Assembly: GCA_020846975.1 (NCBI GenBank)
Contig: JADLCX010000058.1
Span: 62,001-126,000 of the forward strand
Direction: 5' to 3'
Length of the DNA stretch: 64,000 nt
Source: Phycisphaerales bacterium
Lineage (GTDB): Bacteria > Planctomycetota > Phycisphaerae > Phycisphaerales > UBA1924
Shown here: in pieces, positions 52,029 to 57,687 of the stretch
How positions within the stretch are numbered: the stretch's first letter is position 1
Layout of the letters: each line of letters starts with the position of its first letter
Notes under the pieces: generated by a model
What the model saw: only the letters and a program-made list of their open reading frames with translations
Databases searched by the model: none
What the model was told of the DNA's origin: nothing
Made by a program: the position numbers and the translations under genes

Positions 52029-53219
52029 ATGCTGCAACGCGTGCTCTCGGTTTGTCTGCTCGTTGTCTCGATGTCGGTCGCCGGGTGCGGGGTCAACGGC
52101 CCGGCGCAGTGTCGATCCTCCGAGCCGGATACCGGCCTGAGGGGTCATCTGCTGGTGATCGGCGGCGGACTGGATGATGACAACAGGCCGGTGTACGAGC
52201 GGTTCGTCACATTGGCGAAGCAGGCTGCGAGGCCCGAGGACAGGGAGGCCCCGCGGGTCGTCATCGCCACGGCCGCAAGCGGGAACGAGGAGCCGAACGT
52301 CACGGGGAAGCGACAGTCGATCTCGGCGTATTGTCCGACCTGCCGGATCGATGCGGTCATGCGGGCGACTTCGACGGAGGAGACGGTCGCGCTGATCGAT
52401 GCGGCGAGCGCGATGTTCTTCACCGGGGGCGATCAGAAGCGGATCACGACGCGGTACCTCAAGGATGGGCAGGACACGCCCGAGTCGCTGGCGATGCGGC
52501 GGCTGCTCGCTCGCGGCGGGGTGATCGCCGGGACCAGCGCGGGCGATGCGATGATGTCGGACCCGATGTTCTTCACGGGCCGGAGCGCCGAGGCGCTGGG
52601 GATCCGGTCGAATCGCACCCAGCGCGGCGACGATGATGATGCCGATGACAAGCGCCAGGGGGGGGCGCGCGAACTGCCGCTGGGGCCGCAGATCGGCCAG
52701 GGGATGAACTTCGTGCCGTGGGTGATCACGGACTCGCACTTCTTCGAGCGGCATCGGTTCGGGCGGCTGGTCGCCGCGTGCGAGGCGAGCGGCAAGCGGC
52801 TGGGGCTGGGTGTTGGGGAGGATGCGTGCGTGGAGATCGACCTCGCAACGGGCGAGTGCATCGGGGTGAGCGTGGCGGATTCGCTGTTGGTCGATGCGGG
52901 GGGGATCGAGCGGGACAACCTCACGCGCCGGAACATCCGGGCGATGGTGGTCCAGAAGGGGACGCGCGTGTCGCTGCCGTTGCGGCTGCGCGTGAAGCCC
53001 AACCCCGCGCCGGCGATGCCGACGATCGTCGATGAGGTCCCCGTGGTCGAGCCGGGGCAGAACCGGCAACTGGCTTCGTGGCGGTTCTTCCTGAACGCGC
53101 AGATGCCGACCGCGCCCGGCGAGGCTCCGGTGGTGCGGCGGTTGAAACTCGACGGATTCGAGCAGTTCGGCTGGAGCGCGGGTGGGGGGTGGAGCGTGGT
53201 GGAGATCCGGCCGCTGTGA
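52029..53219 (+). CDS. Lipoprotein cyanophycinase (peptidase S51)
   Basis: A 396-residue S51-family serine peptidase that would cut the Asp-Arg polymer cyanophycin to dipeptides. The nucleophile elbow is IAGTSAGDAMM with Ser near residue 170, preceded by FFTGGDQKR, and ITDSHFFERHRFGRL carries the His region. A lipoprotein signal (VCLLVVSMSVAGC) puts it on the outer side of the inner membrane or the outer membrane, unlike most cytoplasmic cyanophycinases. It has an acidic insert (RGDDDDADDKRQGG) near residue 200. No cyanophycin synthetase gene is seen nearby. Confidence 0.9.
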   Translation: MLQRVLSVCLLVVSMSVAGCGVNGPAQCRSSEPDTGLRGHLLVIGGGLDDDNRPVYERFVTLAKQAARPEDREAPRVVIATAASGNEEPNVTGKRQSISAYCPTCRIDAVMRATSTEETVALIDAASAMFFTGGDQKRITTRYLKDGQDTPESLAMRRLLARGGVIAGTSAGDAMMSDPMFFTGRSAEALGIRSNRTQRGDDDDADDKRQGGARELPLGPQIGQGMNFVPWVITDSHFFERHRFGRLVAACEASGKRLGLGVGEDACVEIDLATGECIGVSVADSLLVDAGGIERDNLTRRNIRAMVVQKGTRVSLPLRLRVKPNPAPAMPTIVDEVPVVEPGQNRQLASWRFFLNAQMPTAPGEAPVVRRLKLDGFEQFGWSAGGGWSVVEIRPL

Positions 53220-53490
53220 AAGGGAAGGTGGCGCGAGCGATGGGGCGGCGTGGTGCGCGGTTCGGAGAGCCGCCATACCGGGAGATCGAGCGGGTGAGGG
53301 GGTAACCTGGCCGCCGTTCCTGTGGCAGTTCAGAGGCGAGGAGCTGCGTGCACGCCGTCTGCGGCGGGCAACAAGCGCTTCCGGGGGCGCAAGAAACGGA
53401 GCAGTGGACGCGACGCGGCGAGCATTGGCGCGGAGCCACACAATCCACGGTGTCGCGAAGCGGCGGCGGTGAAAGCCTCGACGATCGCAA
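53220..53490. other. Gap with no supported gene
   Basis: This stretch after the cyanophycinase gene holds only short overlapping open frames with no start signal or recognisable product. It lies just downstream of the minus-strand terminator at 53491-53531 and has no repeat I could find. Confidence 0.5.
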
Positions 53491-53531
53491 AAAGAAAAAT
53501 CCCCGCTACGACCGGTCAGTTCGTAGCGGGG
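53491..53531 (-). terminator. Strong intrinsic terminator
   Basis: A perfect 11-base stem (53501-53511 with 53521-53531, nine-base loop), followed on the minus strand by a T-rich run (ATTTTTCTTTTT). It is the best-formed intrinsic terminator in the window and ends the noncoding RNA entry at 53491-53708. Its orientation shows that the transcript comes from the minus strand. Confidence 0.85.
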
Positions 53532-53708
53532 TTAGAGGACTGTTTAGGCCCTCTCTCGCCTCTCTCTCACTCCAGAAGCTCCCTCGGGCTATCCCTCTCT
53601 CGCTCCACCCTCTCTCTCGCGTCTCTCTCTGTGCTCCAGACCCGGAAGGAGTCTTTTGCTAACGCAGGGTTTCGCAGGACGCCGTCTTTGGGAACTATCC
53701 GGTAAGGC
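53491..53708 (-). ncRNA. Candidate GA-repeat noncoding RNA, about 215 bases
   Basis: Between a well-formed promoter (53715-53742) and the terminator at 53491-53531 lies about 215 bases of minus-strand sequence without a convincing open frame. It is strongly purine-rich, with three related modules of the form UGGAG...GCGAGAGAGGG (about 53639-53608, 53606-53592 and 53574-53548), and seven GGA triplets in all. Small hairpins are visible, including AGACUC/GGGUCU and AGAGGGC/GUCCUCU. It is not 6S, tmRNA, SRP or RNase P RNA by any feature I can see. A protein-sequestering (CsrB-like) or SD-like role is an inference. Confidence 0.6.
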
Positions 53709-53714
53709 AAGTGC

Positions 53715-53742
53715 AATGTACCAGATGCACCGGCAATGTCAA
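53715..53742 (-). promoter_or_regulatory. Sigma-70 promoter of the candidate RNA
   Basis: On the minus strand a perfect TTGACA (-35, at 53737-53742) is followed after 16 bases by TACATT (-10, at 53715-53720). Transcription would begin near 53708. The -35 is a full consensus match; the -10 matches four of six. No operator could be recognised. Confidence 0.65.
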
Positions 53743-56746: not shown

Positions 56747-57009
56747 TGGACCGAATACGGCGCGCGAAGAGTCGAGCTTGCGAGATTGCGAGAGAGCGAG
56801 CTTGCCCCATTCGGGGGAAGCACACGCTTTCATTGCCCTCTTCGGGTGATCGCGGGAAGTGCGAACGCGGTGAATAACTCGGTCGAACTCCGGTTCGTGC
56901 TTGCGGATGGACCGCCGAGTGAGACAATGCCTCCGTGCGCTGACTCGGACGCAAGCCCGTCCGGTTGCGATGGACACTGCGGCCCGAGCGGTGTGCAGGA
57001 GGATCGAAC

Positions 57010-57687
57010 ATGAGAGAGAGCAATGTTCGTCTCGGCGCGGTGGTTGTGTCTGCGTGCGGCGCGGCGATGATCTCATCGCCGGCGCTGGGCTGGGGCAACA
57101 GCAGCGTCAACGGCTTCGGGTTCGGAACGGCGGAGGTTCGTGTGTGGTGCGCGCCGAACGCGCCGCCGGCGGCGCCCAATCACTTTGTTTCCAACGGTCC
57201 GATGTTCGGGCCGTCGGCTTCTCTCGGGCCGGGCCTCGCGGGCTGCAATCCGGCCACGTTCGGATCGCTGACGGGCGGCGGACTCTGGCGCTGGAACGTG
57301 GCTTCGTCCGCGCTGGGCGGCGACGTTGTTGACGGGTACGACCTGTACCCATTGGTCACGCCCACCTCGTTCTCGGCTTCGGCATCGCTGGTTACGTCGG
57401 GGTCGGTGCTGTCTTCGAGCAGCGCGATGTTCACGATCTCGTGGTCGGGCTCGGACATGGGCACCGCGCAGCGTCTCCGCTGGCTGGAGCCGGATGGCTC
57501 ATTGATCCGCGAAGAGCTGCGCGTCGGCCCGTGGAGCGAGACATTCACAGCGTTGATCACATCCTCGTTCCCAATCGAGGAGATTCGGCTTGAGACTTGC
57601 GGGGTCGTGACGAGCATCCCATCGCCGGGAGGCGCGATCCTGCTGGCGCTGGCGGGCTTCGCGATTCCGAGGCGTCGCCGCGTGTAG
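57010..57687 (+). CDS. Secreted protein with PEP-CTERM-like tail
   Basis: A 225-residue protein with an ATG after AGGAGGATCGAAC. It has a signal peptide (about residues 1-27, ending SSPALG), and a Ser/Gly-rich beta domain with two Cys. The C-terminus is IPSPGGAILLALAGFAIPRRRRV: a short Pro-rich motif, a hydrophobic helix and an Arg cluster, the layout of PEP-CTERM sorting signals. That suggests processing by an exosortase-like enzyme, none of which is in the window. The function of the mature domain is unknown. Confidence 0.78.
   Translation: MRESNVRLGAVVVSACGAAMISSPALGWGNSSVNGFGFGTAEVRVWCAPNAPPAAPNHFVSNGPMFGPSASLGPGLAGCNPATFGSLTGGGLWRWNVASSALGGDVVDGYDLYPLVTPTSFSASASLVTSGSVLSSSSAMFTISWSGSDMGTAQRLRWLEPDGSLIREELRVGPWSETFTALITSSFPIEEIRLETCGVVTSIPSPGGAILLALAGFAIPRRRRV

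Follow-up and report, generated by a model that had tools for sequence, protein, structure and literature searches.

A family-restricted small RNA with GA repeats in Phycisphaerales, possibly a decoy of PEP-CTERM translation starts

The window analyzed here is a stretch of 64,000 nucleotides from a Phycisphaerales bacterium (genome G000). On its minus strand, a -35 box TTGACA (53737..53742) and a -10 box TACATT (53715..53720), the latter with GG just before it (GGTACATT), stand 16 nt apart, as the preliminary description of this locus had stated. The pair is the sole promoter-like match in a local scan, in which 0.2 matches are expected by chance, and the pattern TTGACA-N15-18-TANNTT occurs only once in the whole 64 kb. 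The predicted transcript is read from the minus strand from a conserved 5' end, GCCU (53705..53708), to a U tract and should measure about 220 nt (53489..53708), close to the 215 bases or so proposed earlier; its start site was placed according to the promoter spacing and the conserved GCCU. A tRNA-Val(CAC) gene, thiG and others lie upstream, and a convergent cyanophycinase-like gene is the neighbor on the plus strand (52029-53219).

The body of the predicted RNA contains three GA-rich modules, previously described as UGGAG..GCGAGAGAGGG and indeed present on the minus strand at 53608..53638 (module 1, TGGAGCACAGAGAGAGACGCGAGAGAGAGGG), 53593..53607 (module 2, TGGAGCGAGAGAGGG) and 53548..53574 (module 3, TGGAGTGAGAGAGAGGCGAGAGAGGGC), the last being the most conserved stretch. 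The AGGC that ends module 3 is complementary to the 5' GCCU, and the two would form the closing helix of a rod. Two hairpins on the minus strand make up the 3' part. The first, P3 (53535..53553), has the stem GAGGGC/GUCCUC, with 100% of cells paired and two one-sided changes. The second is the terminator hairpin (53501..53531), a perfectly paired 11-bp stem (arms 53531-53521 and 53511-53501) with a 9-nt loop, ACUGACCGG, that includes a conserved UGACCG. It is followed by the U-rich tail ATTTTTCTTTTT (53489..53500), which is kept in most members of the family and lost in G005. Our terminator scan, limited to loops of 8 nt, missed this hairpin because of its 9-nt loop; the stem-loop and T-run reported earlier are nevertheless exactly as described.

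A BLAST search of 60 relatives found a similar stretch in four other genera, and alignment of the homologues showed that the promoter, the GA-rich 3' module and the terminator hairpin were common to all. The preliminary description had suggested a covariance search of related genomes. Built on the 3' module, a first covariance model picked out 12 clear members in the 163 genomes of the family; they score 53-105 bits and come from 12 genomes and 8 genera of one Phycisphaerales family. A second model returned the same 12 members among 400 genomes of the order, and in 392 sampled genomes of the phylum nothing convincing turned up beyond the family. With 34 bits, the promoter, an AUGACCG loop and an AhpC gene downstream, G031 is a borderline case for a 13th member. 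Of the other weak matches, those inspected by eye (among them L063-L065, L067, L070, L072, L073, L078, L128 and L129) looked like ordinary terminators or like coding sequence. The -35 box is identical in 12/12 clear members and in G031, the -10 box reads TA[CGT]ATT, and the 16-nt spacer is kept in every one of these resolved by script; in G108, where the script had picked an upstream TTGACA, the promoter (CTTGACA..GGTACATT) was read by eye. In G004, the GCCU has apparently been swapped for UCACC/GGUGA (by eye). Rfam 15 identified only a tRNA in the whole window at the gathering threshold and only tRNA in the first five loci, and returned nothing for the RNA locus at a permissive threshold of up to E = 10, in agreement with the earlier remark that the RNA does not match 6S, tmRNA, SRP or RNase P RNA. 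A literature search found no regulatory sRNA described from Phycisphaerae.

By sequence comparison, promoter, structure and GA segments are conserved and an open reading frame is not, and the promoter, the GA segments and the hairpin are under selection across genera rather than neutral. The locus thus almost certainly specifies a real, new and previously uncatalogued sRNA of about 220 nt that is restricted to this family.

Covariation supports the predicted structure. In the terminator hairpin, five pairs are changed on both sides, in nine cells, and 100% are paired; 0/500 shuffles scored as high, and none of the slid controls reached the covariation of this stem. The two 3' hairpins together fold with z = -4.9, and 0/200 shuffles were equally stable. 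The UGACCG loop stays constant across members while the stem sequence changes, and this includes G005, in which the U tract is gone and a second terminator is found downstream, ahead of an ECF sigma factor gene. The hairpin with the UGACCG loop therefore probably has a role beyond termination. The 5' domain of G000 folds no better than its shuffles (z = -0.25). Since RNAalifold did not resolve the arms from a plain MAFFT alignment, we used an alignment-free swap test. Own 5' and 3' arms paired better than arms exchanged between genera, with 14/20,000 permutations as good, and 4/20,000 when G085 was left out. The earlier reading, that this is an orphan RNA of regulatory type with a promoter and a terminator of its own, is thus strengthened by conservation across genera and by a covarying structure.

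In an alignment of eight closer members, nearly all invariant columns fall into the GA segments and the arms are variable. Minimum free energy folds place the GA segments in internal loops and bulges of the rod, the GG of GGAG often appearing paired, and GA positions are unpaired more often than the remainder (0.44-0.73 versus 0.26-0.37). Invariant GA segments combined with varying, co-pairing arms are the pattern of conserved, predictedly unpaired sites on a scaffold. In L011 (G115) and other members, a U-rich tail, UUUUUCAUUUUU, can pair with the final GA module in the predicted fold and might mask it.

The preliminary description had pointed to seven GGA triplets. Seven are present, six in the body and one in GGGGAUU, but they are not the signal: the 6 GGA of the window RNA compare with 6.4 or 7.3 in shuffles, whereas GAGAG occurs 12 times versus 0.6 or 5.2 (motif excess was judged against mono- and dinucleotide shuffles). 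The large excess of GAGAG recurs in every GA-bearing clear member, and in no member are GGA or ANGGA significantly above the expectation from composition; the counts for G019 and G108 cover only the first part of the body, owing to an early GAGGGC match. Spread of the GA module through the genome as a mobile repeat is unsupported, and the module was not found in viral contigs. Another GA-array element, with modules like GGAGAGAGAGAU and GCGAGAGAGUGGCGAGAGAGUGC and a terminator at its end, lies in the 3' UTR of a PEP-CTERM-like gene (L028, G183:C193:13126-13220; L030, G182:C3:20731-20823) and resembles the 3' module of the sRNA.

Genomic matches to GGAGNGAGAGAG included several at the very start of secreted-type genes, with AGGAGUGAGAGAG-AUG in G000, AGGAGAGAGAGAG-AUG in G183 and GGAGUGAGAGAG-AUG in G015. 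The same GA motif was present in the 5' regions of orthologous genes of G115 and G116. In 1.18 Mb of G000, GAGAGAG was found no more than 22 nt ahead of the start in 5/10 putative PEP-CTERM genes versus 5/867 others, the former being defined crudely by a PEP-CTERM pattern and a signal-peptide start, with guessed start codons and some false members (about 7/10 look genuine by their C-termini). Without the gene that prompted the test, the fraction was 4/9 (p = 6e-7). A looser first pass with GAGAG gave 5/24 PEP-CTERM genes versus 40/853 others. How genes were filtered, which starts were chosen and how far upstream the test reached were all decided during the analysis. In other genomes, GAGAGAG was found at 0/2 PEP-CTERM starts in G015, 0/2 in G115 (GAGAG at 1/2) and 0/4 in the RNA-free G117 (GAGAG at 1/4), numbers that are too small. 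We regard the association, which comes from one genome and small numbers, as a lead and not as proof; the GA-rich starts could be merely strong Shine-Dalgarno regions. An aside of the preliminary description, that the purine runs resemble repeated Shine-Dalgarno sequences, turned out to be the better lead. In the window itself, a PEP-CTERM-like gene (ORF 56965-57687) has AGGAGG ahead of its probable AUG and GAGAGAGAG directly after it (57012-57020, plus strand).

The occurrence of GAGAGAG both in the RNA and at PEP-CTERM translation starts makes a decoy probable among the functions one might consider. The model that we favor, though with somewhat less than even confidence, is that of a decoy with several sites on a scaffold, which imitates the region around the translation start of PEP-CTERM mRNAs and titrates a factor. 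A free-standing small RNA would be made from its own sigma-70 promoter, with an intrinsic terminator marking its end. The 5' and 3' halves of the molecule would pair into an imperfect rod, and the GA-repeat segments (GGAGUGAGAGAG and variants) would jut out unpaired from the 3' strand of this rod; two 3' hairpins would follow, the last with the invariant UGACCG loop. The GA segments would copy the GA-rich translation-start region of the mRNAs for PEP-CTERM proteins, which are exported surface proteins. The RNA would bind and titrate the reader of this region, which might be the 30S subunit, an RNA-binding protein or an RNA of complementary sequence, and titration would alter the output of the PEP-CTERM gene set in trans. 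Expression, trans action, the GA-reading factor, its targets and the direction of the effect are what we infer. The strongest objection to the decoy model is L018 (G085:C77:17034-17123), a member that keeps the promoter, the GCCU end and both 3' hairpins and is without GA repeats, which it has lost or never had. Either the GA part is dispensable somewhere or the copy in G085 has changed its role.

Several other readings of the locus have to be weighed against the decoy model. A small-protein gene, or a neutral GA microsatellite, would account for the Arg-Glu-rich open frames that run across the GA repeats in several members and for the GA microsatellites of some relatives, such as G114. In this RNA-free relative, long GA microsatellites occur with dispersed repeat cassettes (L144-L147). 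However, the longest minus-strand frame at the locus is a 49-aa TTG frame that is not conserved in relatives, so the earlier judgment that no convincing ORF is present holds. A conserved short protein in relatives, named beforehand as an observation that would speak against an RNA, was looked for, and no start, frame or stop was common to the members. Distances between anchors are not the same modulo 3, two bases are added in G005, and a stop interrupts module 3 in G004; cross-genus conservation of promoter, GA segments and hairpin also speaks against neutrality. Both versions are very unlikely. A sponge for CsrA/RsmA of the CsrB type, the partner proposed originally, would fit the GGA that opens most modules and never varies in module 3, and also the two csrA genes that a check suggested in the preliminary description brought to light in G000. 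The main copy lies directly behind fliW, between flagellin-type genes (L048, G000:C89:29000-37000), the second at C89:109551-109718. Yet CsrA is present in 26/26 relatives tested, with or without the RNA, while the RNA is found in only 12/163 family genomes. In other bacteria with the fliW-csrA arrangement seen here, the FliW protein antagonizes CsrA (PMC6529632, PMC4894983). On the composition shuffles and the distribution of csrA, we dropped GGA and CsrA as the leading reading and consider such a sponge distinctly improbable. Base pairing of the GA segments with CUCUC-type sites in mRNAs, or of the UGACCG loop with CGGUCA sites, would make good use of repeated, unpaired segments and of an exposed, invariant loop. 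CTCTC, however, is not enriched at gene starts (0/24 PEP-CTERM genes versus 33/657 others), and ECF translation starts show no obvious CUCUCU tract by eye. We consider a base-pairing sRNA of this kind quite unlikely.

The genes downstream of the RNA raise the question of a role in cis. Seven genomes, belonging to four genera, have an ECF sigma factor gene immediately downstream of the RNA and in the same orientation, and after it a gene for a VIT/VWA protein of about 1450 aa. An orthologue of the ECF gene is found in only 11/163 family genomes, and 9/11 of these, G000 included, bear the RNA (4e-6 in a Fisher test by genus, without correction for phylogeny). These observations would be explained if the RNA were the 5' leader of the ECF/VIT-VWA operon and its 3' hairpin a regulated terminator. 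In G000, however, the ECF gene is unlinked to the RNA, on contig C47, where a 1524-aa ORF follows it, and the RNA faces the cyanophycinase-like gene. In G108, RNA and ECF gene are about 3 kb apart, and G019, G015 and G004 have no ECF orthologue, the RNA preceding an AhpC/TSA gene instead. In G005, it is the second terminator that sits before the ECF gene, and attenuation needs no arrays of GA segments. We therefore regard a leader or attenuator as an unlikely general explanation, although a role in cis is possible in some lineages. Persistence of the RNA in G000 without the downstream operon favors action in trans. The AhpC/TSA gene was rejected as a partner, its orthologue being widespread and, in most of 30 loci inspected, not preceded by such an RNA. 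The ECF orthologues themselves (L117-L127) resemble one another around the start codon, where they read much like CGGCCAUGA, and show no purine-rich Shine-Dalgarno sequence. Several have a GGAGACG-like box upstream, perhaps a leaderless, self-regulated promoter.

The link to the ECF/VIT-VWA operon suggests an envelope or surface response. This association, and that of GAGAGAG with PEP-CTERM gene starts, are both new. The wider claim, that planctomycetes possess a new family of decoy RNAs which imitate PEP-CTERM start regions and control this class of genes via a GA-reading factor, is possible but on balance unlikely. If the decoy model holds, it provides a named and testable post-transcriptional circuit built on a decoy RNA whose motif is not GGA, and a candidate regulon consisting of the PEP-CTERM surface proteins, together with the linked ECF sigma factor. 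The RNA would also serve as bait for a new RNA-binding partner in a genome without an Hfq match (Pfam model PF17209 in G000, 95.8% complete).

Among known systems, 6S RNA, tmRNA, SRP RNA and RNase P RNA share only the size range with the GA-repeat RNA. The leader attenuators of ECF operons are like it in the seven genomes where it lies upstream of the operon and ends in a terminator hairpin. Unlike them, the GA-repeat RNA is kept without the operon in the window genome and others, and has a sequence-conserved hairpin loop and GA segments in multiple copies. AG-repeat RNAs, ligands of the distal face of Hfq in Gram-positive bacteria, likewise combine unpaired AG/GA repeats with a U-rich 3' end, but the host genome of the GA-repeat RNA has no Pfam Hfq match. 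Free-standing, terminated sRNAs that carry many copies of a short unpaired motif on a scaffold, a motif also found near mRNA translation starts, are exemplified by CsrB, CsrC, RsmX, RsmY and RsmZ, and in these respects the GA-repeat RNA resembles them. It differs in that it has no Rfam match and CsrA is unsupported as its partner, in that its motif is (GA)n and not GGA in hairpin loops, and in that its segments are arranged on one strand of a rod, whereas the CsrB-type decoys display theirs on a row of hairpin loops.
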